Source: a bacterium | Lineage (GTDB): Bacteria; Armatimonadota; Zipacnadia; Zipacnadales; UBA11051 | Length of the DNA: 64,000 nt | Direction of reading: 5' to 3' | Assembly: GCA_021372615.1 (NCBI GenBank) | Contig: JAJFUB010000085.1 | Span: 124,001-188,000 of the forward strand | In this document: positions 21,503 to 39,770 of the stretch, piece after piece | Layout: each line of letters begins with the position of its first letter | Position numbering within the stretch: the stretch's first letter is position 1 | The notes under the pieces: model-generated | Database searches by the model: none | What the model was told of the DNA's origin: nothing | What the model saw: the letters and a program-made list of their open reading frames with translations, nothing else | Translations under genes and position numbers: made by a program

Positions 21503-21632
21503 CTCTTCTTCCTGATATGCGACCGCGTCTCCCGATGTCTCCACCCCTGGCGACGTGTCGGGATGAAGAGGCGACAGTAGGGCAGGACGACTCCCCTGCC
21601 CTACTATGTTCCGTCCTGGATTGTGGCGTGGC

Positions 21633-22718
<1,086 letters not shown>

Positions 22719-22761
22719 ATGCAAGATTATCGCCTCTTTCTGTGGGTACGGTAACAGGAGG

Positions 22762-22792
22762 GGGCCGGCTCGTCGCCGGCCCGCCGTGCTAC
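22762..22792. repeat. REP hairpin with GTAG head
   Basis: GGGCCGGC/GCCGGCCC arms, with GTAG on the minus strand at 22792-22789. It lies in the leader of the lipoprotein isomerase gene. Confidence 0.55.
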
Positions 22793-22823
22793 GGATCCGC
22801 CGCGGAGCGACGGATCGCATGGC

Positions 22824-23510: not shown

Positions 23511-24296
23511 TCAACCCACCCGTAGCTCGCGGTGGATCGCGGCCCGCAGGCGCGCCGTGGCCTGCGTGTGGATCTGGCACACGCGGGATTCCGTTACCCC
23601 CATGATCTGACCGATCTCCTTGAGTGTCAGCTCCTGCTCATAGTACAGACTCATTATGGTACGTTCACGTTCTGGAAGCCCCCCCACCGCCTGTGCCACC
23701 AGCCGCCGCAACTCCGCCTTCTCCACGATCGCCAGCGGGTCGGCAAAGTCCTCGGACGGCTCGCCCGGAGCATAGTCGCTGGTCTCGTACGGCTCCTCGC
23801 CCGCCAACAGCTCTTCCAGCGAGGCCACCGAGGCCGTGCTGGCCTCCGACAGGAAGCGATGGTACTGCTCCAGCGTCATCTCCATCGCCTCGGCGACTTC
23901 CTCTTCCTCGGGGGCCCGGACGAGCTGCGCCTCCAGTTGGCTGACGACCTCGGCCAACTGCCGCAGGCGCCGCCGCATGCTACGCGGCGCCCAGTCCTTG
24001 GCCCGCAGCGACTCCATGACCTCCCCACGCACCACCGTCGTCGCGTAGGTCTCGAACTTCACCCCCCGCCCGGGGTCGAAGCGGTCCACGGCCTTGATGA
24101 GCCCGAGGATGCCGGCCGACACCAGGTCCTCGCGGTCCACGTTGGCCGGCAGTTGGGTGCTGATCCGCCCCACCACGTACTTGACGATGTGCACGTGGTC
24201 GCGAATGGTCTGCTCGCGCAAGGCGGGCGTGCCGCACCAGGATACTGCCACCTGCGAGGTCGCGGGTGGCCTCAGGGCCACTGCTGCCAAGGCCAT
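23511..24296 (-). CDS. fliA: FliA/WhiG-type RNA polymerase sigma factor
   Basis: An alternative sigma factor of the flagellar class, 261 residues. Region 2 is visible (VDREDLVSAGILGLIKAVDRFDPGRGVKFETYA), as is region 4 (LPERERTIMSLYYEQELTLKEIGQIMGVTESRVCQI). Its ATG shares one base with the flhA stop (TGATG), so it is translationally coupled to the export genes. In flagellar systems this factor drives late filament genes and is held by FlgM; no flgM or flagellin gene is present in the window. A TTG one codon earlier is an alternative start. Confidence 0.92.
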   Translation of the reverse strand: MALAAVALRPPATSQVAVSWCGTPALREQTIRDHVHIVKYVVGRISTQLPANVDREDLVSAGILGLIKAVDRFDPGRGVKFETYATTVVRGEVMESLRAKDWAPRSMRRRLRQLAEVVSQLEAQLVRAPEEEEVAEAMEMTLEQYHRFLSEASTASVASLEELLAGEEPYETSDYAPGEPSEDFADPLAIVEKAELRRLVAQAVGGLPERERTIMSLYYEQELTLKEIGQIMGVTESRVCQIHTQATARLRAAIHRELRVG

Positions 24297-26290
24297 CAAC
24301 TCCCCGCCGCCGGTGCCGCCACCGGACCGGTCTCGTATTCGGGCAGCGCGCCCATGCTCAGCACTTCGGTGAGCGGCAGCAACTCGCCCGCGCGCACCAC
24401 TGCCACCACGGCGCCCGCTTCCCGTGCCAACTCCGCCACCGCCGGCCGCAGCTCAGGCGGACACAGGACTACGGCCCCCGTGGCCGACTCCGCATGCTGC
24501 CGCTGGGCCCGGCGCAGCGCCTCGCGCCAGTGCTCGGCCCGCTCGGGGGGCAAGGCCACCGCCGCCCCGTCGCCCGCCGCCTGCATAGCGGTCCGCAGCT
24601 CCTGCTGCATCCCCTCGGTCAGTGCCAGCGCGCAGAGCGTTCCTTCGGGCGCCACCAGCCGCGTGATGGTCCGCTGCAGTGCCGGGCGCACGCGCTCGGC
24701 CAGGTCGGCCGCCGGCCCCGCCTCCGCTATCGCCTCCAGCAGCGATACGCGCTCCACAAGCGGCACCCGCTCGGCCAGCAGCGCCCGACCCACCTGCCGC
24801 AACTCCTGCTCTGTCAGGCCGGCTGCCTCGTAGGCCCGCGCCACGGCCGGATGGCTCACGCGCACCATCTCCAGCAGTTCGTGCGCCCGCTGCAGGTCGA
24901 ACAACTCGGGGGCCGCCCCCGACAGCGCCGACCGCACGTACAGCGCCAGCGCTTCCCGCGGCGACAGCCGCTGCGTCCCGTCCTCCGCACCAGGATCGTC
25001 ATCGGCCTCGCGCAGCCACGTCGCACGGCGGCCATCGGGCAGGACGACCTGCTCGCCCTCCGGCAGTGCGAGGCTTCGGGCAGGCGCCACGGCCAGTTGC
25101 CGTCCCGGCCGCAGCGGAGCCTGCGCCAGTACGGCGCCGTTGAGGGCGATGGCGAAGTCATGCGGCGGCAGCGTCGGGTCATCACTGACGACGAACGTCG
25201 GCACAGCGAACCCCAGTTCATCGGACAGCGCCACACGCTGCCGGTTCAGCCACTGGATCAGGTCCGGCTGGGCCGTCAGCGACAGCAGGCCGGCGCCCAG
25301 TCGCAACTGCAGCGTCACGGGGGGCTCGGACGCCGGTGCTTCAGGCACGCGCCGCTTCGTGGCATAGTACGCCAGGCCGCCGACGGCGGCAGCGCCGATC
25401 AGCAGGGGCGCACGGCCTGCGCCCGGCGCCAGGGCGACGGCCAGCAGCGCCACGGCGACCGTGACCAGCAACCCGGGTTGCAGCAGCACCCGGCCGAGGC
25501 TCCCGGCGGCATCGGCGGCCCGGGTGCGCGACAGCACCACGGCCGCGCCGGCCATCGTGAGCAGTCCCGGAGCCAGCACGACGATCCCCAGCCCCAGCGA
25601 GAAGACGACGGCCTCCGTCCAGCCCAGCGCCGTCGCCCCGCCCGGCGCCAACGCCGCCAGGGGCGCCACGACCACGATCACGGCGACCGCCAGCATCTCA
25701 CCTCGCAGGAAGCGCGCGGCGCCGTCCATCGCCCCGTAGAAGGCGTTCTGGGTCTGCAACGCCTCGGCCCGGGCCGCCCCGGCCTCCGCCTCCAGCCGGC
25801 CACTGCCCAGAGCCGCGTCCAGCGCCATCTGCTGCCCCGGCAGCGCATCCAGCGCAAAGCGCGCCGCCACCTCCGCCAGGCGCATGAGCCCCAGGCTCAG
25901 GACCACGTACGAGGTCAGCATGAGCAGCCCCAGGGCGACGACACCACCAATGGGGTTCTCGCCTGCGGACGTCAGCATTCCCCCCAGCGTCTGCGCCAGT
26001 GTCCCGACGGTGCCGTAGGCCAGCAGGCTGCGCGCCGCCGCCAACGCCAGCGCCACCCGCACCATGCTGCCCACCACCAGCACCCCCGGCAGCGACGGGA
26101 AGCCCAGCGGCCCCTCCGCCGACAGTGCCACGAGCAGCACCGCCAGACCGAAGGCCAGGCTCGCGGTCAGGAGCAGGTCGAGCACGAAGGGCGGCAGCGG
26201 CAGCAGTAGCACCAGCAGCGCCAACAGGCCCGCCAAAGCCACCAGGTGCTCGCGCGACCAGCGCACCCGCTGCAGGGCACTCCCATTCAT
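24296..26290 (-). CDS. flhA: Flagellar-type export gate protein FlhA
   Basis: A 664-residue type III export gate subunit. The first 300 residues hold about eight membrane helices, with the FHIPEP-region pattern RLAEVAARFALDALPGQQMALDA. The conserved Lys before the Ala-rich part is lost, but Arg and Asp are kept. A cytoplasmic domain from about residue 330 has the usual receptor features, including LTEQELRQVGRALLAERVPL. It is directly downstream of flhB with three bases between. It would bind chaperone-substrate complexes and couple the proton-motive force to export. Confidence 0.92.
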   Translation of the reverse strand: MNGSALQRVRWSREHLVALAGLLALLVLLLPLPPFVLDLLLTASLAFGLAVLLVALSAEGPLGFPSLPGVLVVGSMVRVALALAAARSLLAYGTVGTLAQTLGGMLTSAGENPIGGVVALGLLMLTSYVVLSLGLMRLAEVAARFALDALPGQQMALDAALGSGRLEAEAGAARAEALQTQNAFYGAMDGAARFLRGEMLAVAVIVVVAPLAALAPGGATALGWTEAVVFSLGLGIVVLAPGLLTMAGAAVVLSRTRAADAAGSLGRVLLQPGLLVTVAVALLAVALAPGAGRAPLLIGAAAVGGLAYYATKRRVPEAPASEPPVTLQLRLGAGLLSLTAQPDLIQWLNRQRVALSDELGFAVPTFVVSDDPTLPPHDFAIALNGAVLAQAPLRPGRQLAVAPARSLALPEGEQVVLPDGRRATWLREADDDPGAEDGTQRLSPREALALYVRSALSGAAPELFDLQRAHELLEMVRVSHPAVARAYEAAGLTEQELRQVGRALLAERVPLVERVSLLEAIAEAGPAADLAERVRPALQRTITRLVAPEGTLCALALTEGMQQELRTAMQAAGDGAAVALPPERAEHWREALRRAQRQHAESATGAVVLCPPELRPAVAELAREAGAVVAVVRAGELLPLTEVLSMGALPEYETGPVAAPAAGS

Positions 26291-26293
26291 TAC

Positions 26294-27010
26294 TTACGGT
26301 CTCCTTCGCAATCGGTGCTGCAGCCACTCACTGACCCGCCGCCGCTTCAGCCACGCCCCCTCGGTCTCCCGCCGGTCCTCCAGCATCTCGCGGTGGCTCA
26401 TCTGCGCCCGGCTCAGGTAGCTCAGCCGTGTCGCCACACCATGCAGGATCGCCACCGCCACCAGCACCGCCAGCCAGCGCCACCACAACGCCAGCGCCCC
26501 CGACGATCCGCGGGGATCGGGCCATGCGGTCTGTGCCGACAGCCCCTGCAGCCAACTGCGGAGCAGCACGGCAAGTGCGCACAGAGCTAATAGGCCCAAC
26601 CAGAACGACATCACAGAGAAACGGGGACGACTTGCGCCGGCATCGTGAGTCATCGGCAGATACATCTGTTTACTTGAGCGTTGCACAACGCCGCCCTGGG
26701 CGATCTGAGCCAGGAGGGCCACCCCCATTGCCCCCAGGGCCACCAGTGCAACCGCGAGTCCGCCCTGCAGCAGCCGCGTCGCCAGCAGCCCCGGCAGCGC
26801 CGCTGCCTCTACCATCGGGCGCTGCAGATCCTGCGCCAGCAGGCCCGCGAGCCAGCCGCAGAGCCTCCCGCCCAGCAGCACCAGCCCGCCGGTCGCGGCC
26901 ACGATCGCCACGGCCGCCGTCACGGCCGCACTCGCAGGGCTGAGCCCCGTCTGGCGCAGTCGCTCCAGCCGCCGGGGCGTCGCAGGATAGCGCTTGATCT
27001 CGTCGCTCAT
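26294..27010 (-). CDS. flhB: Truncated FlhB-like export switch protein lacking the NPTH autocleavage domain
   Basis: A 238-residue protein matching only the first two thirds of FlhB (usually 350-380 residues). It has the N-terminal ATPRRLERLRQTG, four hydrophobic spans, and the linker signature MSHREMLEDRRETEG at residues 204-218. It then stops after a basic helix. FlhBC, with the self-cleaving Asn-Pro-Thr-His loop that switches substrate specificity, is entirely absent. There is no room for a frameshifted remnant, since flhA starts three bases later. Gene order fliR-flhB-flhA is otherwise normal. Either the switch is provided by a separate protein or the system has no switch. Confidence 0.85.
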   Translation of the reverse strand: MSDEIKRYPATPRRLERLRQTGLSPASAAVTAAVAIVAATGGLVLLGGRLCGWLAGLLAQDLQRPMVEAAALPGLLATRLLQGGLAVALVALGAMGVALLAQIAQGGVVQRSSKQMYLPMTHDAGASRPRFSVMSFWLGLLALCALAVLLRSWLQGLSAQTAWPDPRGSSGALALWWRWLAVLVAVAILHGVATRLSYLSRAQMSHREMLEDRRETEGAWLKRRRVSEWLQHRLRRRP

Positions 27011-27025: not shown

Positions 27026-27766
27026 TTACCCCAGTGTCGCCAGCCACCGAGCTGTCACGTCGGCCACGACGCTGACCTGGTGCAACAGCACCGCCCCCAG
27101 CAGCGGGGCGACCACGCCCAACGCCAGCAGCGTCACCAGGGCGCGGGCGGCCGGTAGCACCTCCGCCGCCCGCAACTCGGGCAGGACGCGCTGCAGGCTG
27201 CTGACCATCAGGGCAGCCAGCACCGTCCCCAACACCACCGGCCCGGCCAGTTGCAGGAGCCCCGTGAAGAACAGGCTAGGCCAATACACCCACGAGGCCG
27301 CTGCCGTCAGGTCGGCGGCCTGCCCCGGCGGCAGCAGGACATATGACTGCCGGAAGAACGCGACGAGCCAGTGCAGGCCGTTGAGCTGCACGAAGAACAC
27401 CAGAACCAGCACGGTGAAGAGCCCCGCCAGCGGTCCGTCCTCCTCGTCCGCGGCGGCGAAGCCGCCCACCACGTCCTGCAGGTGCCCGGCAGCGAATGCC
27501 CCCCACACCAGCAGCCAGAGCCCGAGACCCATCAGCAGGCCCACCGCCGCCTCGCGCGCCACCGCTGCCACATACTCAGGCATCGTGAGGGCCAGAGGCG
27601 CTCCTGCCGGCGCGATGGCCAGAGCCAGCGGTCCCGTCAGCACCGCCGCCACCGCCAGGCGCAGCGACGGGGGGAAGTGCCGCCACCCCGTGGGCGGCGC
27701 CAGGGCCAGCAGCCCGGCCGCCCGTGCGAACACCAGACCCCACACCGGCCACAGGGCAGGCATCAT
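27026..27766 (-). CDS. fliR: Flagellar-type export apparatus protein FliR
   Basis: A 246-residue membrane protein with five to six hydrophobic spans. Family-like segments are LWPVWGLVFARAAGLL at the start and FVQLNGLHWLVAFFRQSY in the middle (the FliR gate region). FliR forms the export gate with FliP and FliQ in the inner membrane. Its ATG overlaps the fliQ stop (ATGA), and flhB follows by 15 bases. Confidence 0.9.
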   Translation of the reverse strand: MMPALWPVWGLVFARAAGLLALAPPTGWRHFPPSLRLAVAAVLTGPLALAIAPAGAPLALTMPEYVAAVAREAAVGLLMGLGLWLLVWGAFAAGHLQDVVGGFAAADEEDGPLAGLFTVLVLVFFVQLNGLHWLVAFFRQSYVLLPPGQAADLTAAASWVYWPSLFFTGLLQLAGPVVLGTVLAALMVSSLQRVLPELRAAEVLPAARALVTLLALGVVAPLLGAVLLHQVSVVADVTARWLATLG

Positions 27767-28038
27767 CGCGCGTGCACCAGGGAGGCGGCCGCCAGCCAGA
27801 GCGAGCCCCAGTAGCCGCACGACAGGCTCAGCATCCACGCCCCGAACAGCGCCAGCGCCACGCCTGCCGCCAGGAGCTTCGGCGCCAGGAGACTGCTCTG
27901 GTCGCTGAGCCCCAGGAGGTTCTGTAGGTAGGCGCCCAGCAGTCCGGCGGCCACAATCGCCGCCAGCAGCGGCAGCGACAACCACAGGGCCATCAGCAGT
28001 GCGTTCTGGAGCAGTGCGCTCCCGGCAGCCCAGTACAT
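27763..28038 (-). CDS. fliQ: Flagellar-type export apparatus protein FliQ
   Basis: A 91-residue protein with two membrane helices, the usual size. The central AAIVAAGLLGAYLQNLLGLSDQS fits the FliQ signature. It is the first gene after the inserted opposite-strand lipoprotein gene, so fliQ and the genes after it may need their own promoter. No convincing minus-strand promoter is seen in 28039-28188. Confidence 0.88.
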   Translation of the reverse strand: MYWAAGSALLQNALLMALWLSLPLLAAIVAAGLLGAYLQNLLGLSDQSSLLAPKLLAAGVALALFGAWMLSLSCGYWGSLWLAAASLVHAR

Positions 28039-28188: not shown

Positions 28189-29037
28189 ATGGCTGCGCGC
28201 TTGCTGTGCATCATGGCTTTGCTGGCGGTCGTGCTCCTGAGCGGCTGCGGTGGCGGCGACAGCGACCCTGTGCTCATCGCGGGCAACTACTTTCCTCTCA
28301 CCGTCGGCGCGGTGTGGGTCTACAACACCATACTCGAGGCGGAGACCCCCACCGATGAGTTCACCACGACCGGCACCATGACGCGGACGCTGGTGGGGAC
28401 CCAGGACCTCCAGGTGGACGGAGCGACGGCCACCACGTACGTCTTCCGCCACGACTACACGACCAACGCCGTCCCCGACCTCACCGGCGGCGCGTCCGTG
28501 GACGTCGCCCCCTTTATCAACCATCTGTTTGCGGCCGACGGCGGCCTGCATTCGGTGCTGGCCTGCTACCGCACAGTGGCCGCCACCGCCGATACGCCGG
28601 CCCACATTGAGGTGGTCGCCGTAGCGCGCGTGGGTGAAGCAAACGTGTCGGTGCCCGAACCGCGCCCCTTCCTGTACAACCCGCCCTACCAGGGCACCAT
28701 GCACAATGGCAGCACCTGGTTTGTGCCCATGCCCCTGATGCCGTTCATCACCGAGATGACTGGCTTCGAGCAGAACGACAAGACGCTCAACTATGGTGTC
28801 CTCGGCGGCATTGGCGATGCCGCCAACACCATCGTCAACATCAGCTACTACGCCGCCGATCTGAACGTGGACGGCAGCACCGCCGCTATCGCCGGGCGCG
28901 GTCGCAACTACTGCAAGGATGGCGTCGGCTTCTGGGGCGGTGAGGTCCAGAGCGACTGGTACGCCACCATCAACGTCCACGGCAACACCTCGCGCGTGAC
29001 CTCGCAGGCCGAGCTTGTGTCCTTCACCATGCCCTGA
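28189..29037 (+). CDS. Predicted lipoprotein inserted antisense into the export operon
   Basis: A 282-residue protein with a lipoprotein signal (MAARLLCIMALLAVVLLSGC, lipobox LSGC) followed by a Gly/Asp linker and a beta-rich domain starting with YFPLTVGAVWVYN, a pattern seen in secreted beta-barrel-like repeats of unknown role. I do not recognise the family. It lies between fliP and fliQ on the opposite strand, with its own promoter and terminator-like hairpin. GAGGTG is eight bases before the ATG. Whether it serves the export system or is an unrelated insertion is unknown. Confidence 0.75.
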   Translation: MAARLLCIMALLAVVLLSGCGGGDSDPVLIAGNYFPLTVGAVWVYNTILEAETPTDEFTTTGTMTRTLVGTQDLQVDGATATTYVFRHDYTTNAVPDLTGGASVDVAPFINHLFAADGGLHSVLACYRTVAATADTPAHIEVVAVARVGEANVSVPEPRPFLYNPPYQGTMHNGSTWFVPMPLMPFITEMTGFEQNDKTLNYGVLGGIGDAANTIVNISYYAADLNVDGSTAAIAGRGRNYCKDGVGFWGGEVQSDWYATINVHGNTSRVTSQAELVSFTMP

Positions 29038-29067: not shown

Positions 29068-29100
29068 GGGCGAGGCTTCGGCCTCGCCCTGTTCCGCTAC
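29068..29100. terminator. UUCG hairpin with GTAG foot between the lipoprotein gene and fliP
   Basis: A nine-base stem GGGCGAGGC/GCCTCGCCC with a TTCG loop lies between two convergent stop codons and can serve both. On the minus strand GTAG (29100-29097) lies seven bases before the stem, and its TAG is the fliP stop codon, as in the REP elements. Confidence 0.65.
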
Positions 29101-29819
29101 TGGAGGCTGCTCAGCAGCGCGTACGCCAGCAGTCGCCACCCATCCACCATCACAAACAGCAGCACTTTGAACGGCAGCGCGACGACTGACGCGGGCAGGG
29201 ACACTAGCCCCAGCGAGGCCACCGTGCCCGCCACCACCAGGTCGATCACCACGAACGGCAGATAGATCACAAGGCCGATGATGAACGCCGCCCGCAGCTC
29301 CGAGATGGCGTAGGCGGCGGCCAGCGTGTGGAGCGCCGGCAGCCCTTGCGGTGCGGGCGACGGCTCGAACCCCTGGAACAGCCGCAGGTCCTCCACCCGG
29401 GTGTGGGCCGTCAGGAACGCCCGCGACGGCGCCTGTGTCGCCTCCCAGGCCGCCCCGAGGCTCATCTCCCCGGCCAGTAGTGGCTGCGCCGCGCGGTCGT
29501 TGATCTCGCGCAACGTGCCGGACATGCTGAAGGCAGTGAGCAGAAGAGCGAGGCCGATCAGGACGGGGTTGGGGATGAGCGGTTGGGAACTTAGCCCTGC
29601 CCGCAGGAAGAACAGCACGATCACGATGCGGGCGAAAGAGGTCATGACGGCGAGCAGCGCCGGCGCCAGCGACACCGACGCGAACAGCAGGATCAGCCGC
29701 AGGTAGGACGTGGCGTCCGTCGCCCCGAGGTTGACTGCCACCGGGGCGCCGCCACGCGCACTCGCCGCCGAAGCGCAACCGAGGACGACTACCGCCACGG
29801 CGAGCCAGCGCGCTCTCAC
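29097..29819 (-). CDS. fliP: Flagellar-type export apparatus protein FliP
   Basis: A 240-residue protein with a signal-type N-terminus (cleavage near ASA) and later membrane helices. Conserved segments include VMTSFARIVIVLFFLR, GLALLLTAFSM, and ALPFKVLLFVMVDGW near the C-terminus. It forms the core of the export gate with FliQ and FliR. Its ATG overlaps the fliO stop (ATGA). Normally fliQ follows at once; here a foreign gene on the other strand separates them. Confidence 0.92.
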   Translation of the reverse strand: MRARWLAVAVVVLGCASAASARGGAPVAVNLGATDATSYLRLILLFASVSLAPALLAVMTSFARIVIVLFFLRAGLSSQPLIPNPVLIGLALLLTAFSMSGTLREINDRAAQPLLAGEMSLGAAWEATQAPSRAFLTAHTRVEDLRLFQGFEPSPAPQGLPALHTLAAAYAISELRAAFIIGLVIYLPFVVIDLVVAGTVASLGLVSLPASVVALPFKVLLFVMVDGWRLLAYALLSSLQ

Positions 29820-30202
29820 CGGGCATCGCCCTCTTCCCCATCGTCGACGGACGCGGCTGGCACCTCCGGCGGCACTTCAGTCGCCGCCACCCCTCCGGGG
29901 CCACAGGTCAGCGCCAACAGTTTCCGCCCCACGCGCACCACGTGGAGCACATAGCCCCCGTGCAGGGGCACCGACTGCAGCAACTCCGCCGGGCCGGACG
30001 GCGCCGCGCCCATGCATCCCGGCCCCACGCGCCGCAGCAGCCAGTACACGCCGTAGATGAGAGCGATGACCAGCGCCAGGCTCAGCAGCGCTTGGAGCAG
30101 GTAGTGGCCGGGCGCATAGGGCAGCCCCGGCGTGGGCGCTGCCGGCTGGGCCGAGGCCACGGCGCAGACAGCCCCCGCGAATCCGATGGCACTTAGCCTC
30201 AT
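29816..30202 (-). CDS. fliO: Flagellar-type assembly protein FliO
   Basis: A 128-residue protein with a signal peptide (cleavage near ASAQP), a short periplasmic part, one membrane helix (LLSLALVIALIYGVYWLLR) and a small cytoplasmic domain with LLQSVPLHGGYVLHVVRVGRKLLAL, typical of FliO. FliO stabilises FliP during gate assembly. The tail is acidic. Gene order fliN-fliO-fliP is standard. Confidence 0.85.
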   Translation of the reverse strand: MRLSAIGFAGAVCAVASAQPAAPTPGLPYAPGHYLLQALLSLALVIALIYGVYWLLRRVGPGCMGAAPSGPAELLQSVPLHGGYVLHVVRVGRKLLALTCGPGGVAATEVPPEVPAASVDDGEEGDAR

Positions 30203-30203
30203 G

Positions 30204-30506
30204 TCACAGCCCCGAGGCCGAGACCTGCGTGATCCGCACTCCCAGGTCGTTGTCCACTCGCACCAGCTCCCCCAGGGCGATGACCCGGTCGCCCACCATG
30301 ATCTCCGCGGGTTCGCCCACTTCCCGGTCGAGCAGCAGCACGGAGCCGACCTCCAGTTCGAGCAGTTCGCGCAGGGCCAGTCGGGTTGACCCCAGGCGCA
30401 CCGTCACCTGCAGCGGGACCTCTGACAGCGCCGTCAGTTGCGGCTCCGTCGCAGGCTGGAACTGATCCGCCATCCTTACCGGCACATCCGTGTCATACAA
30501 AGCCAC
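30204..30506 (-). CDS. fliN: Flagellar switch/C-ring protein FliN
   Basis: A 100-residue protein consisting essentially of one SpoA (FliMN_C) domain: LSEVPLQVTVRLGSTRLALRELLELEVGS, then VGDRVIALGELVRVDNDLGVRI, a close FliN match. The GTG at 30506 has GGGAGG at seven bases upstream and overlaps the fliM end; an ATG at 30473 would give 89 residues. FliN forms the base of the C-ring and docks FliH for export. Confidence 0.88.
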   Translation of the reverse strand: MALYDTDVPVRMADQFQPATEPQLTALSEVPLQVTVRLGSTRLALRELLELEVGSVLLLDREVGEPAEIMVGDRVIALGELVRVDNDLGVRITQVSASGL

Positions 30507-30508
30507 TG

Positions 30509-31312
30509 TCACGCCTCCCTGCCCCCCTCCACATGCTGGATGCTGATGGCCAGCGTCGCGCCTTTGGCGCCAATGCGTCCCCACGCCACGGGCGCGCCGT
30601 TGGCCCGGAGAATGCTCTGCTGATCGCCAGCTCCGAGAGCCAGCACGTCCCCCGGCTGCATCTCCAGCAACTCGCGCGGCGTCACCGGCGGCGCCACCAC
30701 GACAGCTTCCACCACCACCGGCGCGTCGGCGAGTTCCTCCCGCTGCAGTCGCTGCCCCCCCTCGGGCGGCGTGAGACACGCGCGCAGGTCGGCCCACGGC
30801 ACTGTCAGTACCACCTCGCCGCCAGCGGGGCCGTGCGCCACGTGCATCCGCCACGCCACCACTGCCTCCGCACCCGCCGGGACAGGGCCCCGGGCCAGCA
30901 CCGGGCTCGGGGGGCTTCCGGCCAGACGCAGCTCCCGCCCGAGGTCTGCAGCAAGTGCCCGGGCGGGCAACTGCAACAGGCGCAGGTCCAGATCGGTGAG
31001 GGCGTGCTCGGCTAGTTCGTCCTGCCCCAGTTGCGCCGCCAGCAGCGCCGTCGTGGCCGTGGGCGACAGCAGCAGCCGCCAGGCCCCCCCGTGCGGCCAT
31101 GTGGCGGCGACAGCCCAGAAGCCCGCCTCGAGCCGCCGGGGTTGCCAGTCCGGCTCGGGGGCCGGCGTACAGGTCACCCCGAACGAGGCGAAGGCTGCCA
31201 CCAGCAAGTGCTGCACCCGGGCCCCGAGGACTTGCAGGGAGGCCTCCTGGGCATGCGAGGGTGCCTCGACCGACGGCGGCTCGTAGCGCTGGGCGACATC
31301 GCTTGTAGGCAT
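30509..31312 (-). CDS. fliM: FliM-like C-ring protein without the CheY-binding peptide
   Basis: A 267-residue protein, shorter than usual (about 330). The C-terminal SpoA domain is clear (EELADAPVVVEAVVVAPPVTPRELLEMQPGDVLAL). The middle part resembles the CheC-like FliM core only weakly. The N-terminus (PTSDVAQRYEPPSVE) lacks the LSQDEIDALL-like motif that binds phosphorylated CheY. It is in the usual place before fliN. FliY or a SctQ-like protein are alternatives. Confidence 0.7.
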   Translation of the reverse strand: MPTSDVAQRYEPPSVEAPSHAQEASLQVLGARVQHLLVAAFASFGVTCTPAPEPDWQPRRLEAGFWAVAATWPHGGAWRLLLSPTATTALLAAQLGQDELAEHALTDLDLRLLQLPARALAADLGRELRLAGSPPSPVLARGPVPAGAEAVVAWRMHVAHGPAGGEVVLTVPWADLRACLTPPEGGQRLQREELADAPVVVEAVVVAPPVTPRELLEMQPGDVLALGAGDQQSILRANGAPVAWGRIGAKGATLAISIQHVEGGREA

Positions 31313-31317
31313 GGGCT

Positions 31318-31728
31318 CTACTCCGGCGCATAGCGCTGTGCGTGTTCGTCAGCGAGGGCCTGCTTCTGGCGCTGCTGGCGCGCTCGCCGTCCTTCGGCCA
31401 GCCGACCGATCAGGCGCTCGAGAGTCCGGCGCGTCTGGGCCACCCGCCGCCACCTGAGGCGGTCTGTCGCCACCCGGCCCCGGGCCTCGCGCAGGGCCTG
31501 CTGCAACTCCTGACACTGCCGTTCCACCAGAGCGGCATAGCGGTCACGATGGCAGAGCGCCGCCGCGGTGCCGGCTTCCGCCAGCGGGCGGCGTGCTTGC
31601 GCGGCCTGCAACTCCCCCTCGACCTGCCGGCAGGCCAGCAGACTGCGCTCGACTTCGCCTTGCAGGGCGCGCTCCTGGCCCGCGATGGACCGGAGCAGCC
31701 GTCCGAACCGTGCGGCGGAGTCAGGCAT
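31318..31728 (-). CDS. fliJ: FliJ-like coiled-coil export chaperone
   Basis: A 136-residue, almost entirely helical protein rich in Arg, Gln, Glu and Ala. Heptads are visible through ALREARGRVATDRLRWRRVAQTRR. Sequence identity to FliJ is low, but the length, composition and position (after fliI, overlapping by 8 bases) match. FliJ sits in the ATPase ring like the gamma subunit of F1. Confidence 0.72.
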   Translation of the reverse strand: MPDSAARFGRLLRSIAGQERALQGEVERSLLACRQVEGELQAAQARRPLAEAGTAAALCHRDRYAALVERQCQELQQALREARGRVATDRLRWRRVAQTRRTLERLIGRLAEGRRARQQRQKQALADEHAQRYAPE

Positions 31729-33121
31729 GTGCCACCTGCCTCTCCCCGTCCCCAGCCGGCCCCATGAGCGCCAGCAGCCGCCGCCGGGCGTCGGACGGAT
31801 CGGCGTATTCGTGCTGCCCCTGTCGCAGGAACTGCATCATGTCCGGTCGCCGGCGGACCGCCAGATCGGCCAGCGGGCGCGCCCCGGGACGGTAGGCACC
31901 CACAGCGATCAGGTCCTCGACCTCGCGGTGCGCCGCCAACAGCTCTCGGAAGGCCGCCGCGGCCTGGGTGTGCGGCTCGTCCACCAGGCGGGACATCAGC
32001 CGCGAGACGCTGCCGCTGACATCCACGGCCGGGTAGTGCCCCCGGTCGGCCAACTCGCGGGTCAGGTGGATGTGGCCGTCGAGGATGGCACTGACCGCAT
32101 CGGCCACCGGCTCCTGCAGGTCATCCCCCTCCACCAGCACGGCATAGACGCCGGTGATGCTGCCGGTCGCCCCGCTGCCGGCGCGCTCCAGCAGCCGCGC
32201 CAGGAACTCGTACATGGAGGCGGGGTAGCCGCGCGTGGTGGGCGCCTCCCCGGCCGCCAGACCGACCTCGCGCTGCGCCCGGGCCAGCCGCGTCAGCGAG
32301 TCCACAATCAGCAACACATCGAGGCCCTGGTCCCGGAAGTGCTCGGCGATGGTCGTGGCCGTCAGCCCGGCGGCGATGCGCACCAGGGCCGGCTCGTCCG
32401 ACGTCGCCGCCACGACGACCGAGCGCGCCAGACCCTCGCCGAGGTTGACCTCCAGAAAATCGCGCACCTCACGCCCCCGCTCGCCGACCAGCCCCACGAC
32501 GGCCACGTCCGCGGTGTGATAGCGCGCCATCATGCCCAGCAGCGAACTCTTGCCGACCCCCGCGCCCGAGAAGATGCCCAGGCGCTGCCCCTTGCCACAG
32601 GTCAGCAGCGTGTCCACGGCGCGCACGCCGAAGTGCAGCGGCTCGACGATGCACTGCCGCCCCAAAGGCGGCGGGGGAGCGCTCTCGACGGGGCGCAGCA
32701 CCGTCTCTCCCAGATCGCCCTTGCCATCGATAGGGCGACCGAAGGCATCCAGAACCCGCCCCAGAATGCCACGACCGATGGGCACGCTCAGCGCCCGCCC
32801 CGTCGCCGTCACCGGGCAGCCGGGGGCCACGCCGCCCATGCGCCCCAGCGGCAGCAGCAGCGTGTAACCGTGCCGGAAGCCGACCACCTGCGCCGCGATC
32901 TCCGGCGCGCTGTCGGTGGGGCGGATGTGGCAGATCTCCCCCACGCGCGCGGCCGGGCCTTCAGCCAGGACCGTATGGCCCGACACCTCGGCGACCTTGC
33001 CCGTGGCCCGCATCCGGGGCAAGCCCGACACTCGCGCGGCCAGAGCCCGCAGCCGCTCGCGCTCCTGTGTGATGGTCGCCGCCGACTCAGCCGCCGCGTA
33101 CGCGCACATGACCTCATCCAT
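31721..33121 (-). CDS. fliI: Flagellar-type export ATPase FliI
   Basis: A 466-residue ATPase homologous to F1-beta. It has the Walker A loop GIFSGAGVGKSSLLGMM, GERGREVRDFLE, Walker B DVLLIVDSLTRLARAQREV, and PASMYEFLARLLERAG, diagnostic of FliI. The catalytic Glu is in GERGRE. The chosen ATG overlaps the fliH stop by eight bases; the ORF extends upstream through fliH in another frame. It unfolds and releases export substrates from their chaperones. Confidence 0.94.
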   Translation of the reverse strand: MDEVMCAYAAAESAATITQERERLRALAARVSGLPRMRATGKVAEVSGHTVLAEGPAARVGEICHIRPTDSAPEIAAQVVGFRHGYTLLLPLGRMGGVAPGCPVTATGRALSVPIGRGILGRVLDAFGRPIDGKGDLGETVLRPVESAPPPPLGRQCIVEPLHFGVRAVDTLLTCGKGQRLGIFSGAGVGKSSLLGMMARYHTADVAVVGLVGERGREVRDFLEVNLGEGLARSVVVAATSDEPALVRIAAGLTATTIAEHFRDQGLDVLLIVDSLTRLARAQREVGLAAGEAPTTRGYPASMYEFLARLLERAGSGATGSITGVYAVLVEGDDLQEPVADAVSAILDGHIHLTRELADRGHYPAVDVSGSVSRLMSRLVDEPHTQAAAAFRELLAAHREVEDLIAVGAYRPGARPLADLAVRRRPDMMQFLRQGQHEYADPSDARRRLLALMGPAGDGERQVAHA

Positions 33122-33653
33122 TGTACGAAGCCGCCAGGGCCTCGCGCAGAGTGGCCAACTGGGTCTGCAAGGTGGCGTCGAAGCCTCCCCGGTCGCTATC
33201 GAGGCGACAGCCGCCGCGCTCGATGCTCGGGTCGGCGATGAACTCCAGTTGCGCCGCCTGCTCCTGCCAGGCGGCCTGGTGCTCCTGCAGGTGCGCCAGA
33301 TCATCCGGATGCAGGCGCGCCACGATCTTCGTCGCGAAGTGCAGGTTCTGCAGGGCTTGCGCCAGTGTGTGCTCGATGACTGTGGGGTCGGCCGTGACCT
33401 CGTGGCGGACGATCTCGCGGGCGACGGACAGGGCCAGTTCGAGGATCTCGGGCCTGATCTGCATGAGGAGCCGCGCCCGCTCCTGCACCATCTCCTCGGC
33501 GATGCGCCCCAGCAGCCGCAAGTGTCGCTCCGGGTCGCCGGCGTCCGGCGGCGCCGGCGCGGCGAGCGTGCGGGCAGGCTCGATCTCCTCGTGGAAGGGG
33601 CGGATCGTCCCCACCTTGCCCTGCAGTTCGCTCTGCCGCAGCAGTCCGCGCAT
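33114..33653 (-). CDS. fliH: FliH-like ATPase regulator
   Basis: A 179-residue protein with a helical centre (GRIAEEMVQERARLLMQIRPEILELALSVAREIVRHEV), the FliH/HrpE signature, and the C-terminal half LHPDDLAHLQEH then EFIADPSIERGGCRLDSDRGGFDATLQTQL. It binds FliI and links it to FliN. Slightly shorter than average because the glycine-rich N-terminal helix is missing. Confidence 0.87.
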   Translation of the reverse strand: MRGLLRQSELQGKVGTIRPFHEEIEPARTLAAPAPPDAGDPERHLRLLGRIAEEMVQERARLLMQIRPEILELALSVAREIVRHEVTADPTVIEHTLAQALQNLHFATKIVARLHPDDLAHLQEHQAAWQEQAAQLEFIADPSIERGGCRLDSDRGGFDATLQTQLATLREALAASYNG

Positions 33654-33675: not shown

Positions 33676-34509
33676 CTAGGTGCCTGTGTTGAGGCGCTCC
33701 TGCAACTCGTGCACGAGCGCCCGCGCCACGCGGGCGTCCGTCGGCCGCGTGGGAAGCCCGACCTCGACCTGCCGCCGTCCCAACTCCCGCTGCAGCCAGC
33801 GGCCGGCCCGTGGACCGGCGAGGCTCACCACCAGCCCGCGCACTTCCGGCCGCTCGCCCTGCAGTAGACCTGCCAGGCGGCCACCGTCACGCAGGATCAG
33901 CGCGTCCAGTGGGTCGTCGGGCTGGCGTCTCCACCCTCGCCTCAGCACCGCCGCGACCCCGACGGCGATCACCAGCGCCGTCCCGACGAGCGCGCCCGGC
34001 AAGAGCGGGCCCAGTGGCGCCGTCACGTCCCCTCGCCGCTCGGCCTGCACCTGCCCCCGCGTCACGAGCATCCGGCCATCGGCCGAGGCGATGTTGAGTC
34101 GTTCGGGGGCCAGGCCAGGGACCGCACCGAGGATGAGTTGCACGAGGCTCTGGAGCGTTCGCAGGTCGAGGGTCTCCCCGGGGCGTAGCTGCACCACGAT
34201 CTGAGCGCTCAGATCGCGGCCTGCTTCACCGGAGAGCAGCACTTCGCTCTTCTGGATCGGGCGGAAGCCACGGAGCAGGGCGGTGAGCTGGCGGTCCAGG
34301 GCCGCATTGGCCACCGGCAGGGCAAACGGCGCTGGAGCGAAGCTGAAGGGGTTGGGGGGCGTGGCAGAGCTTGGCGCAGCAGCGGGGGTAGTACGCGTGA
34401 CGGCAGGCCCCGCCAGGACCTGCGTGGTCTGAGAACCGACAACGATGAGATACAGAGAAGCGACCAACAGCCCCCGCGCGCACCGTTCCCGGATGCGCAG
34501 TACGGTCAT
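33676..34509 (-). CDS. Reduced FliF-like ring protein with FliG-like C-terminal tail
   Basis: A 277-residue protein, half the length of FliF. An N-terminal hydrophobic segment (12-33, signal or anchor) is followed by a Pro/Ala-rich linker. One ring-building motif (68-150) ends with LVQLILGAVPGLAPERLNIASADGR, matching RBM2 of FliF/YscJ. A membrane helix (166-189) follows. The cytoplasmic tail (205-272, LAGLLQGERPEVRGLVVSLAGPRAG) resembles the middle domain of FliG (EHPQ motif as ERPE). RBM1, RBM3/beta-collar and FliG's torque helix are missing. It sits where fliF-fliG would be and starts the operon, preceded by GGGGGA. The FliG resemblance is my reading and weaker than the FliF one. SctJ-like protein is an alternative name. 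Confidence 0.65.
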   Translation of the reverse strand: MTVLRIRERCARGLLVASLYLIVVGSQTTQVLAGPAVTRTTPAAAPSSATPPNPFSFAPAPFALPVANAALDRQLTALLRGFRPIQKSEVLLSGEAGRDLSAQIVVQLRPGETLDLRTLQSLVQLILGAVPGLAPERLNIASADGRMLVTRGQVQAERRGDVTAPLGPLLPGALVGTALVIAVGVAAVLRRGWRRQPDDPLDALILRDGGRLAGLLQGERPEVRGLVVSLAGPRAGRWLQRELGRRQVEVGLPTRPTDARVARALVHELQERLNTGT

Positions 34510-34602: not shown

Positions 34603-35982
34603 TTAGCCTGCCATTGCTTCTACCTCATCGGACAGTGTCTCCACGAACGCCTCGACCACTGGGCCGCTCAGCTTCGTCTCCACGCAGGACCGCAGTTCCA
34701 CCACGGCGACGTCCGGCGACAGCGCGGGCCGATAGGACCGTTCCGAGGTCATGGCATCGTAGCTGTCGCACACGGCGATGATCCGCGAGGCCAGGGGGAT
34801 CTCCTCCTGGCGCAGGCCGAAGGGATAGCCGCTGCCGTCGCCGCGCTCGTGGTGGTAGCGTATGCCACCCACCAGGTGTTGTAGCTGCGGGATGCAGTTG
34901 ATGATTCCCGCGCCCTGCTCGGGATGGCTGCGGATGGCTTCCCACTCCTCCCCCGTCAGGCGCCCCGTCTTGCACAGCACCGTCCGCTCGATCCCGATCT
35001 TGCCGATGTCGTGCACAATGCCGGACATGTAGACAGCCTCGGCCTCGCGGTCGGGCAGCCCCAGAAGGCGGGCCGTGTGTCGCGCTGCCTGGGCCACGCG
35101 GCGGGAGTGGCCGCAGGTGTAGGCGTCCTTGATCTCGATGGCGGCCACCAGGGCCTGGATCGTGTTGAGGAACATGCCGCGCAGGTCGTCCACCAGACTG
35201 CGGTTGCGGAGGGCCAGGGCGGCCTGGTGTCCGGCGGCCTGCACCAGCTTCGCTTCGCGCGAGGTGAACGGGCGCCCGGCGTCGCGCGCCAGCGCCATCA
35301 GCCCACTCCACCGCTCATCACGCTGCAGGCCACTGACGAGCACCTGGCGATCCTGCAGGGGCAGAGCGAAGGGCTCTCGCCCCGCCGGCAGCCGCTTGGC
35401 CGACGGCGCCAGGTATCCCCGGATGGCCTCCATCTCCTCGTCCGACATGCCCTGAATCGCCAGCGGCTGCACTCCCCGGGACTTGTCCAGACACAGAAGG
35501 CAGGCCCCGTCAGCCCCGGCCGCCGCAGCCACGCGCGACAGCAGGGCCTGTGCCATCTCTTCACGCGAACTGGGCAGGCTGATGGTCTCCATGATCCCGT
35601 ACGCGATAGCCAGTTCCTGGTAGGTCGCCGTCAGCTCCCGCACGGTAGCCTCGACGTCCTCAGCGGCCCGCACATGGCACTCGAAAGCATGGGTGAGAGC
35701 ACCCATGATCTCGGGGGCCGGCTGGCGAGCCGAGCCCGCGTAGCAGGCCCGCAGCGACAGGTCCGCCGAGCCGGCCACAGGGGCCTCGGCCGCCGCAGGG
35801 CAGGCCCCGTCGGCCTCGACGAGCGGGCAGGCCCCGGGACGCACGCACGTAGGAAGCACAGGCGGCAACACCCCCCGAACTCGCTCGCGTCCGTCAGAGT
35901 ACACCGCCCAGTACAGCCCCAGCGCACACGACAGGTGGGCCAGGGCCACCGAGAAGTCATCGTTCCCGCGGTTGGCGATCAT
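34603..35982 (-). CDS. GAF and HD-GYP domain protein (probable c-di-GMP phosphodiesterase)
   Basis: A 459-residue signalling protein. After a Cys-rich N-terminal region (about 1-100, CVRPGACPL and others, possibly metal- or redox-binding) come a helix and a GAF domain (about 125-270). The HD-GYP domain follows, with HSRRVAQAARH, GIVHDIGKIGI, YHHERGDGSGYPFGL and SRIIAVCDSYDAMTSERSYR. All metal ligands of an HD-GYP hydrolase are present, so it likely degrades cyclic di-GMP. It is placed between the response regulator and the export operon. Confidence 0.88.
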   Translation of the reverse strand: MIANRGNDDFSVALAHLSCALGLYWAVYSDGRERVRGVLPPVLPTCVRPGACPLVEADGACPAAAEAPVAGSADLSLRACYAGSARQPAPEIMGALTHAFECHVRAAEDVEATVRELTATYQELAIAYGIMETISLPSSREEMAQALLSRVAAAAGADGACLLCLDKSRGVQPLAIQGMSDEEMEAIRGYLAPSAKRLPAGREPFALPLQDRQVLVSGLQRDERWSGLMALARDAGRPFTSREAKLVQAAGHQAALALRNRSLVDDLRGMFLNTIQALVAAIEIKDAYTCGHSRRVAQAARHTARLLGLPDREAEAVYMSGIVHDIGKIGIERTVLCKTGRLTGEEWEAIRSHPEQGAGIINCIPQLQHLVGGIRYHHERGDGSGYPFGLRQEEIPLASRIIAVCDSYDAMTSERSYRPALSPDVAVVELRSCVETKLSGPVVEAFVETLSDEVEAMAG

Positions 35983-35991
35983 GGCCCTGCT

Positions 35992-36474
35992 TCACACCCC
36001 GTCCACCAGCGCGACCAGCGCCCGCGGGTCAGGCGGCTTGGTCAGCACTCCATTGATGTACGGCCGCAGGTCCTGCATGACTTCGGCTTCGGCTAGAATG
36101 CCCGTCAGTACGCAGATGCGCGTGCGCTCCAGACCCGGCACGGCCCGCAGAGCGCGGCAGACTTCGGCCGCAGGCGGCCCGGGCATTTTGAGGTCAATGA
36201 TGATGAGGGCGGGCAGGACTTCGCTTGCCAGGTCGAGGGCCTCCTGCCCGTCGCGCGCGGCGTACACCCGGACACACCGCGCCTCCCGGAGGATGCAAGC
36301 CACGGCCCGGCACACGAAGATGTCGTCATCCACCACCAGCACGACGGGCTGATGGGTGGCCGGCGCTTCCTCGGCCAGGTGGTGCAGATGCAGTACGCCG
36401 CGGTCGGCGCCGCCCTCGGGCGGCCTCCCCCGGGCATTCTGTACGTCCCGTTTCGGGATGGCTTCGGCGGACAT
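35992..36474 (-). CDS. Single-domain response regulator (CheY-like)
   Basis: A 160-residue protein with an intact receiver after a 40-residue polar N-terminal extension: VVLVVDDDIFVC (acidic pocket), phospho-Asp in LIIIDLKMPG, Thr in ICVLTG and Lys in GVLTKPPDP. No output domain. The start ATG comes two bases after the stop of the kinase-like gene, and the HD-GYP gene follows 9 bases later, so the three form one unit. Confidence 0.9.
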   Translation of the reverse strand: MSAEAIPKRDVQNARGRPPEGGADRGVLHLHHLAEEAPATHQPVVLVVDDDIFVCRAVACILREARCVRVYAARDGQEALDLASEVLPALIIIDLKMPGPPAAEVCRALRAVPGLERTRICVLTGILAEAEVMQDLRPYINGVLTKPPDPRALVALVDGV

Positions 36475-36476
36475 GG

Positions 36477-37226
36477 CTAGGCCGATCTCTCCAGACGACT
36501 GTCTTCCAGCACACCGCGCACCCGGCCGACCCGCGGCAGGCGAAGCTGCAGACACATCCCGCAGCCGGTCTCCAGCGTCGCTTCGCCGCCGCGCTGGCGC
36601 ACCAGCACTTCCGCGGCCCGGAAGGCGAAGCTCTCGGCGGCGCGGGACGGCTCACAGCGCGCGCTCGACAGCTCCACGGTCACTTCCTCCTCGGACGTCT
36701 CCGTGACTGTCACCATCAGACACGCGTTGCCTTTGGCGGCTTCCAGGGCGGTCTCGAGCACGGCCGTGAGCAGTTGCTGCAGCACCCCCTGGGGCCAGAT
36801 GACCATCGTCTCGGCCGGCCGCTGCCAATCCACCCGGAAGTCCTGGAGCTGGATCACGTCCTGCAGATCGGCCAGGGCAGCGTCCACCGCCAGACCCAGG
36901 TCCACCTCGTCGAGGTCATCCGACAACGGCGGGGCCGCCAACGCCAGGAAGCTGGAGGCCAACCGGCCCAGACGGCGCGCCTCCGCCAGGATGGTGTAGG
37001 CATACGACTCCCGCACGCTCGGCTCCAGGTTCGGCAGCCAGGCCAGGCATTCGGCGTAGCTGCAGATGGCCGTCAGCGGTGAGCGGATGTCGTGGTCCAT
37101 CTGCCGTGCCAGCGTCGGAAAGCTGTTATCGCCGGGGAAGTAATGCCCCCGACTGTCCAGGATCATCCGCATCAATGCACCCCAGCTGCCCCCAACCAGG
37201 GGGGAGTCGGTAGCCTTATCGGCCAC
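36477..37226 (-). CDS. Histidine kinase-like protein with degenerate ATPase domain
   Basis: A 249-residue soluble protein. The dimerisation and phosphoacceptor site is clear: RQMDHDIRSPLTAICSYAE (His in the H-box near residue 45). The following ATPase-like part lacks a recognisable N-box Asn and the DxGxG G1 box; only a final hydrophobic strand pattern (CGMCLQLRLP) remains. It may act as a phosphotransfer protein or bind another kinase. Adjacent to a single-domain response regulator. Confidence 0.7.
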   Translation of the reverse strand: MADKATDSPLVGGSWGALMRMILDSRGHYFPGDNSFPTLARQMDHDIRSPLTAICSYAECLAWLPNLEPSVRESYAYTILAEARRLGRLASSFLALAAPPLSDDLDEVDLGLAVDAALADLQDVIQLQDFRVDWQRPAETMVIWPQGVLQQLLTAVLETALEAAKGNACLMVTVTETSEEEVTVELSSARCEPSRAAESFAFRAAEVLVRQRGGEATLETGCGMCLQLRLPRVGRVRGVLEDSRLERSA

Positions 37227-38951: not shown

Positions 38952-39701
38952 CTACGCTTCGAGCTTCTCCAGCACTTCGTCCGAAATGTCGAAGTTGCTG
39001 TACACCTGCTGCACGTCGTCGTTGTCGTTGATGTCGTCGAGCAGCTTGAGCACCTTGGGGGCGTCTTCGTCGTTGACTTCCTTGGTCACCGTCGGCACCA
39101 TCGTGACTTCCGCGCGGTCAAACTCGATGCCCATCTCGCGCAGGGCATCGTACACCTGCTGGAAGGCCTTCGGCTCGGTGCGGACCTCGAGGCTTTCGCC
39201 ATCATCAATGACATCCTCGGCGCCGGCATCCACCACGGCCATGAAGAGCTCGTCGTAGTCCACCTTTTCCTTGGGGACCGCGATGACGCCCTTCTGCTCG
39301 AACATCCACGTGACCGCGCCGGCCTCGCTCATGCTGCCGCCGTCCACCTTGAGGATGCGGCGCAGGTCAGCGACCGTGCGGGTCTTGTTGTCGGTGAGGA
39401 CCTCGATCATCAGCGCGATCCCGGACGGGCCGTAACCCTCGTAGATGGCGCTTTCGTAGCTGACGCCCTCGATCTCGCCCGTACCGCGCTTGATGGCGTG
39501 CTGGATGTTGTCGGCCGGCATCTCGGCGGCGCGCGCCTTATCCATGATCAGGCGCAGCCGCGGGTTCATGTCGGGATTGCCGCCCCCGTCGCGCGCTGCG
39601 AGTGTGATCAGGCGCGACATCTTGGCAAAGATCTTGGACTTCTTCGCGTCCTGCCGCGTCTTGCGGTGGACGGTATTCGCCCATTTTGAGTGTCCGGCCA
39701 T
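38952..39701 (-). CDS. yebC: YebC/PmpR family transcriptional/translational regulator
   Basis: A 249-residue protein beginning MAGHSKWANTVHRK, the family hallmark, with YEGYGPSGIALMIEVLTDNKTRT in the middle and EVTMVPTV in the last third. YebC proteins bind DNA, and some help ribosomes through proline stretches. A consensus promoter lies just upstream. Confidence 0.95.
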   Translation of the reverse strand: MAGHSKWANTVHRKTRQDAKKSKIFAKMSRLITLAARDGGGNPDMNPRLRLIMDKARAAEMPADNIQHAIKRGTGEIEGVSYESAIYEGYGPSGIALMIEVLTDNKTRTVADLRRILKVDGGSMSEAGAVTWMFEQKGVIAVPKEKVDYDELFMAVVDAGAEDVIDDGESLEVRTEPKAFQQVYDALREMGIEFDRAEVTMVPTVTKEVNDEDAPKVLKLLDDINDNDDVQQVYSNFDISDEVLEKLEA

Positions 39702-39740
39702 GGCGTCTGCAACCTCCGTCAGGGAACGCTTGGGAAGGAG

Positions 39741-39770
39741 ATTATAGCATTGGTCCGCTAGGGGCGGCAA
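39741..39770 (-). promoter_or_regulatory. Promoter of yebC
   Basis: On the minus strand TTGCCG, an 18-base spacer and a perfect TATAAT, about 40 bases before the ATG. It lies in the gap to the divergent glycoside hydrolase gene. Confidence 0.6.

Follow-up and report, generated by a model that had tools for sequence, protein, structure and literature searches.

What does a flagellar base-ring protein do in a genome where neither rod proteins nor flagellin can be found? This question is raised by a short FliF-like gene in the window (the whole 64,000-nucleotide stretch of DNA analyzed here). Our answer is that the gene quite probably specifies the base ring of an export machine that derives from the flagellum but has no motor, and that the inner ring of this machine would dock the FliM/FliN platform directly. 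The computations show the architecture, its homologies, the operon, the absence of rod, FliG, and flagellin, the shortened FlhB, and conservation across families of the class; ring formation, FliM binding, and secretion are inferred here.

A first-pass annotation, made from the letters alone, had described positions 33676-34509 as a FliF reduced to one ring-building motif and fused to a FliG-like tail. The open reading frame is there (277 codons, 277 aa); what we amend is the strand, which is minus. A plus-strand reading of the interval was ruled out by its internal stops. The gene and its parts are as follows.

33676..34509, minus strand: FliF(RBM2)-TM-FliG_M fusion, putative base-ring protein of a minimal flagellum-type export system, 277 aa (sequence, profile, and fold comparisons)
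34414..34509, minus strand: aa 1-32, N-terminal hydrophobic segment, signal peptide or FliF TM1 remnant (hydropathy, model)
34060..34332, minus strand: aa 60-150, single ring-building motif of RBM2 type (PF01514; hhalign 97% to FliF 118-218; fold Z 13.3-13.5 to FliF RBM2)
33931..33999, minus strand: aa 171-193, membrane helix, then RRGWRR (hydropathy, model; topology inferred)
33679..33915, minus strand: aa 199-277, FliG middle-domain (ARM_M) homolog, with GERPEV (aa 218-223) at the EHPQ position (family profile, hhalign, fold)

Pfam YscJ_FliF (PF01514) matches residues 87-148 of the protein (E 4e-7, above the curated cut-off) and covers only positions 109-177 of the 179 in the profile, that is, one ring motif. 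TIGR00206 (the NCBIfam FliF model) matches residues 100-156 (E 1.7e-5, far under its full-length cut-off), and the aligned fusion family falls on the RBM2 stretch of FliF in hhalign. In the AlphaFold model, residues 65-150 have pLDDT values mostly >90, and the predicted fold of residues 60-150 is that of FliF RBM2 (VIA Z 13.3 to the 21-fold RBM2-inner ring 6sd2, 88 residues aligned). The single RBM2-like motif claimed at first pass is thereby borne out. Neither RBM1 nor RBM3/beta-collar was found in the protein, where one motif only was matched and modeled over 277 aa, as against about 550 in FliF.

The single membrane helix that had been placed after the ring motif is also there, as a strong hydropathy helix at 171-189 with arginines behind it. 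A weaker segment at about 14-32 had gone unmentioned; it resembles FliF TM1 in relatives from family f3, and could be either a signal peptide or a TM1 remnant. Because RRGWRR follows the helix (positive-inside), we place the tail in the cytosol, a topology that remains inferred. No cysteine occupies the lipobox position in the window's protein.

The tail requires more care. With the window's protein alone, PF14841 has no match at E≤0.1, and a local FliG_M profile reaches a mere 2.4 bits; this protein is one of the most divergent members of its family. For it alone the FliG match is weak, and the case rests on the family and the model. Eleven aligned family members share the tail pattern PL.FL......L...L..ERPEV...V, whose register is that of the FliG middle domain, EHPQ loop included. 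Searched against 41 genomes of the order, the family profile matches, besides its own members, true fliG genes in at least 10 genomes, and its C-terminal positions (about 200-303) land on the middle, not the N-terminal, domain of true FliG. It also matches Planococcus FliG at the middle domain, and its tail part matches FliG-sized frames across the phylum, down to E 8.6e-10. By hhalign, the tail aligns end to end with FliG_M (95.4%, score 47.5, 74 columns), versus 5.8% for FliG_N, 25.9% for FliG_C, 1.8% for FliF tails, and at most 1.6% for other proteins of the locus; the highest score among 60 column-shuffled FliG_M profiles was 14.5.

Structural comparison agrees. Taken from the full AlphaFold model, residues 199-277 match Aquifex FliG 106-189 (Z 9.4, rmsd 2.4, 79 residues) and also FliG as it stands in 4qrm, a complex of FliM and FliG middle domains (Z 8.4). 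The best 50 matches of a whole-model Foldseek search contained only RBM2-type and unrelated chains, and for this reason the tail was also modeled alone (pLDDT 90, pTM 0.78). When this model was searched against 350,542 chains, the top 17 of its 23 PDB matches were all FliG, best to residues 104-190; single E-values were poor (0.7-5). VIA gave Z 8.7 over 80 residues to the same Aquifex FliG stretch.

The first-pass annotation had seen FliG-middle-like sequence at 205-272, had proposed a profile and structure comparison, and had named two outcomes that would overturn its view: no structural match to FliG, or a gene fragment with a full fliF elsewhere. In that comparison, sequence and fold both recover FliF RBM2, and profile-profile alignment and fold recover the FliG middle domain over residues 199-277. 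Neither damaging outcome arose, as the tail matches FliG structures and the fusion gene is the only PF01514 match in the genome (6.4 Mb, 96.7% complete). Its remark that the FliF similarity is firmer than the FliG similarity holds for the window's protein by itself; alignment of the family makes both similarities firm. It was also right that the C-terminal torque part of FliG is missing, since FliG_C (PF01706) was found neither in the fusion protein nor anywhere in the genome. The same genome-wide searches found no rod proteins FlgB/FlgC (PF00460), no FliE (PF02049), no flagellin (PF00669), and no FliG_M at E≤0.1, and there is no free FliG. A smaller ring that cannot transmit torque, as had been suggested, is a reasonable inference from the lack of FliG_C and rod, with no measurement behind it.

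The fusion gene does not stand alone. Read along the minus strand, it is the first gene of an export operon, whose remaining members are listed in order together with the gene directly upstream.

33114..33653, minus strand: fliH, ATPase stator (PF02108 E 7e-26)
31721..33121, minus strand: fliI, export ATPase (PF00006, PF18269)
31318..31728, minus strand: fliJ, export stalk (PF02050 E 2e-6; TIGR02473)
30509..31312, minus strand: FliM-like C-ring protein, FliM_M-like plus SPOA domain (PF01052 E 1e-12; TIGR01397; alignment)
30204..30485, minus strand: fliN, SPOA (PF01052 E 6e-23; TIGR02480)
29816..30202, minus strand: fliO (TIGR03500 E 2e-7; PF04347 E 5e-4, just under cut-off)
29097..29819, minus strand: fliP (PF00813 E 2e-57; TIGR01103 scores above yscR)
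27763..28038, minus strand: fliQ (PF01313 E 1e-10)
27026..27772, minus strand: fliR (PF01311 E 3e-26)
26294..27010, minus strand: flhB, 238 aa, membrane domain only (PF01312 matched up to position 243 of 335)
24296..26290, minus strand: flhA (PF00771 E 5e-101; FlhA model 311 bits vs SctV 236 bits)
23511..24299, minus strand: FliA-type sigma factor, at the end of the conserved block (Sigma70 r2/r3/r4; same place in relatives)
34603..35982, minus strand: GAF plus HD-GYP-type protein directly upstream of the fusion (PF13487, PF13492; directly upstream too in the sister-order genome, locus L205)

Profile searches thus place flagellar-type FlhA, FliP, FliQ, FliR, FliO, FliH, FliI, and FliJ at the locus. 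The FlhB truncation is common to the group: no NPTH autocleaving domain was present in any of the 14 group FlhB proteins read, the window's included, all of which end soon after the last membrane helix. The operon has no secretin, needle, or SctD; the three secretins of the genome all lie on other contigs. No conserved substrate gene was found beside the operon; the search there turned up only antisense shadows of known genes, genes of the block already identified, a small gene of four-helix type, and a yebC-type gene in synteny.

Several neighbors may be mentioned in their own right. A lipoprotein gene (28189-29037, plus strand) lies antisense between fliP and fliQ; homologs in four further genomes from the family (L199, L177, L182, and L176) share its position and orientation, and the gene could belong to the export system. 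Directly upstream of the fusion are a histidine kinase, a response regulator, and the GAF/HD-GYP-type gene (34603-37226, minus strand), and kinase genes adjoin fliN in the f3 loci L120, L125, and L159; signaling control of the machine is possible. Near the operon end are two adjacent genes for parvulin-type (PpiC/SurA-like) prolyl isomerases (20549-22820, minus strand). The yebC-type gene of the window (38952-39770, minus strand) has counterparts near minimal T3SS genes in f3 loci as well, which suggests an old, vertically kept locus.

How widespread is this arrangement? The short-form fusion occurs in 26 of the 41 genomes searched in the order (Armatimonadota, Ca. Zipacnadia), plus one sister-order genome; the count of 26 includes one truncated copy (G001) and one contig-end fragment (G025). 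Such recurrence of the architecture is far above chance. The class Ca. Zipacnadia corresponds to GTDB UBA5377 (PMC10290634), and the window's genome is assigned to it because of its kinship to relatives placed there. Thirteen of the 26 short-form genomes also keep a complete flagellum, with rods and FliG, and 13, the window's included, have neither a rod protein nor free FliG. Across the order, rod proteins and FliG_M over the cut-off occur in precisely the same 21 of 41 genomes. Where both systems coexist, there are two classes of full-length FlhA matches, at about 690-880 versus 315-440 bits. The same operon block is found in families f1, f2, f3, and f5 and in one genome of another order; in f2 it was seen up to fliR, at a contig end, and in f3 it is split over loci. 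Elsewhere in the phylum (291 genomes), the matches listed are full-length FliF or FliG frames with two exceptions, one in the sister-order genome (335 aa, E 5e-25) and one 281-aa frame (G046), and so the short form appears to be confined to the class.

Some individual genomes depart from the pattern. In the nearest relative (G001), the fusion gene (L016, 8441-9076) stops just before the FliG_M part, and the operon resumes on another contig beginning inside fliH (L199), which is either an assembly junction or a real break. Three f6 genomes (G011, G020, and G016; loci L058, L059, and L060) have, besides a normal fliG, a second and shorter fliG-like gene of 287-314 aa within a few kb of a flgB-flgC-fliE-fliF operon, and this gene is the strongest match to the fused tail in the order. 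In the full flagellar loci L018 and L022 of the same family, fliG does not adjoin fliF and is paired with fliM some kb away.

Could there be a simpler account of these observations? The tail might be no more than the C-terminal tail of FliF, whose usual partner in an ARM-like co-fold is FliG_N, or else a helical bundle that resembles FliG_M by chance, ARM bundles being common. Full FliF proteins of the class do end in a similar-looking ERPEAV..L.WL, and the FliG_N/FliF-tail co-fold resembles FliG_M (PMC7355467). Against this, the FliG_N-binding FliF tail was not found in the fusion protein by hhalign, where FliF tails and FliG_N both fall far below the end-to-end match to FliG_M; the family profile selects the middle domain, and the leading structural matches are FliG at its middle residues. 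We therefore hold this account to be very unlikely. A flagellum in decay, with a truncated fliF in a cluster being lost, is if anything a shade less credible. Long branches, divergent sequence, several genomes without motor genes, and the G001 copy that ends before the tail would all fit decay, but the truncated fusion architecture and the short FlhB stay intact in long-diverged families, beside complete flagella in 13 genomes, the frames are open throughout at about 25% identity, and the gene order is kept across two orders. What heads this conserved export operon is not a crippled motor. We can barely credit a rotating or chemotactic device that obtains its torque by another route: the FliM/FliN platform is kept, and two-component genes and an HD-GYP-type protein lie upstream, but the genome has no FliG_C and no rod to pass on rotation.

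Ancestry is harder to settle. In a tree of FlhA, the group forms one clade (support 100) within flagellar FlhA, beside the class's own flagellar FlhA (88); the AU test does not reject a clade of the group with three injectisome SctV (p 0.149). A four-protein tree (FliI, FliP, FliR, and FlhA) rooted on NF-T3SS sets the group between injectisomes and the sampled flagella (88), with union with the class's flagella not rejected (p 0.138), and without the long NF outgroup that union appears with support 98, so that long-branch attraction is likely. Including the injectisome outgroup brings the two trees into conflict, with neither placement rejected by the AU tests. The group is one clade, and the statistics leave its placement with respect to injectisomes unsettled. 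A true member of the injectisome lineage, with the fusion protein as a divergent SctJ in the known NF-T3SS clade, is accordingly an explanation that we find unlikely without dismissing it. The system meets the core-gene definition of NF-T3SS given by Abby and Rocha (PMC3459982), which asks for at least 7 of the 8 core genes J, N, Q, R, S, T, U, and V and for no flgB, flgC, or fliE: all eight core components are present, with no rod and no FliE. The RBM2 resembles SctJ domain 2 (EscJ Z 10.9), and the unrejected SctV clade and the rooted four-protein tree point the same way. However, FliO, a FliA-type sigma factor, and a FliG_M domain are present, the operon lacks secretin, needle, and SctD, FlhA and FliP score higher with flagellar than with injectisome models, and both FlhA alone and the four proteins without the long NF branch join the class's own flagella. 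FliO is reported to be absent from other T3SS (PMC2947984). As FliO and the FliA-type sigma factor are flagellar traits, these genes and the trees together indicate one origin of flagellum type, most likely inside Armatimonadota, although this is not statistically settled. Inside the group, branches track the families, which suggests vertical descent.

For the export machine that we propose, the following mechanism may be envisaged. The periplasmic RBM2 would make a single inner ring, as around the FliPQR export gate in flagella, where an inner M-ring of RBM2 has been proposed to house FliPQR (PMC8092281). RBM1 and RBM3/collar, the carriers of the S-ring and the seat of the rod, are missing. 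After its single membrane helix, the chain would enter the cytosol and end in the FliG middle domain, there binding the platform of FliM-like protein and FliN, so that fused FliG_M would replace the separate docking of FliF tail on FliG_N. In flagella, the EHPQ loop of FliG_M contacts the GXXG of FliM (PMC7355467). Here, binding of the tail to FliM can only be inferred, because EHPQ reads ERPE in the fusion and the FliM-like partner has no canonical GGXG, a degeneracy shared by the class's own flagellar FliM. The torque domain FliG_C is dispensable because there is no motor. FliH, FliI, and FliJ would feed substrates through FlhA and FliPQR. With FlhB reduced to its membrane part, the rod/hook-to-filament specificity switch is absent, from which we infer an export machine for a single class of substrate. 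Loss of RBM1, RBM3/collar, FliG_N, and FliG_C would thus strip away the rod seat and torque, and retain the ring around the gate and the hold on the sorting platform. With no conserved substrate gene beside the operon and no secretin within it, our minimal claim is export across the inner membrane.

It is worthwhile setting this protein beside better known ones. SpoIIIAG, the sporulation ring protein, has a similar single RBM-type ring domain (5wc3 Z 9.1); it belongs to a different operon, and is not known to have a FliG domain or an export gate. With FliF the fusion shares RBM2 sequence and fold, a PLPGT-type lead-in (in relatives), a membrane helix after the periplasmic part, and its place before fliH-fliI, but it is half as long, lacks RBM1 and RBM3/beta-collar, and ends in a FliG middle domain. 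That ARM domain is present end to end, without FliG_N or FliG_C and its torque helix, and is joined to a membrane ring protein, whereas FliG is soluble. SctJ/PrgK/EscJ similarly combine an RBM2-type domain with one following membrane helix in a ring around the export gate; unlike SctJ, a lipoprotein with RBM1 and RBM2, the fusion has no RBM1 and no N-terminal lipobox cysteine, and it has the FliG_M tail. The secretin-less NF-T3SS of Myxococcales, proposed as a half-way stage of exaptation (Abby and Rocha 2012, PMC3459982), is likewise an export core without rod or secretin. It comes from another phylum, and the system described here keeps FliO, the FliA-type sigma factor, and FliG_M, with FliF reduced and FlhB truncated (no sequence comparison was made). 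Finally, FliF has been joined to FliG in Salmonella by engineering (PMC6079021; PMC7355467). Such fusions bind FliM and FliN (PMC6079021) and assemble C-rings, as do deletion fusions without most of FliG_N, in their case smaller ones (PMC7355467). In contrast to the natural protein, these laboratory-made forms keep full FliF and FliG_C, and are motile.

We found no natural FliF-FliG fusion in the open-access papers searched, nor any description of a second, minimal export system; the Ca. Zipacnadia paper reports the type III genes of the class together with flagella (PMC10290634). How a flagellum becomes a secretion system is a long-standing question, for which the known route, that of the injectisomes, is old and has few intermediates. 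Abby and Rocha described one exaptation in detail and considered several probable (PMC3459982). The Armatimonadota system, which has no rod, hook, filament, or motor, appears to be a further, separate instance of a flagellum becoming a device for secretion only, and we lean, with some reserve, toward a conversion independent of that of the injectisomes, to a machine without rod, needle, or secretin, built on a one-motif natural FliF-FliG base, working beside true flagella and sending an unknown substrate to the periplasm or beyond. It shows another set of losses in living relatives, often with a true flagellum in the same genome: rod, collar, torque domain, and specificity switch are gone, and gate ring, gate, ATPase, and sorting platform are kept. 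As a natural counterpart of the engineered FliF-FliG fusion, it can serve to test how much of FliF, FliG, and FlhB export by itself requires.
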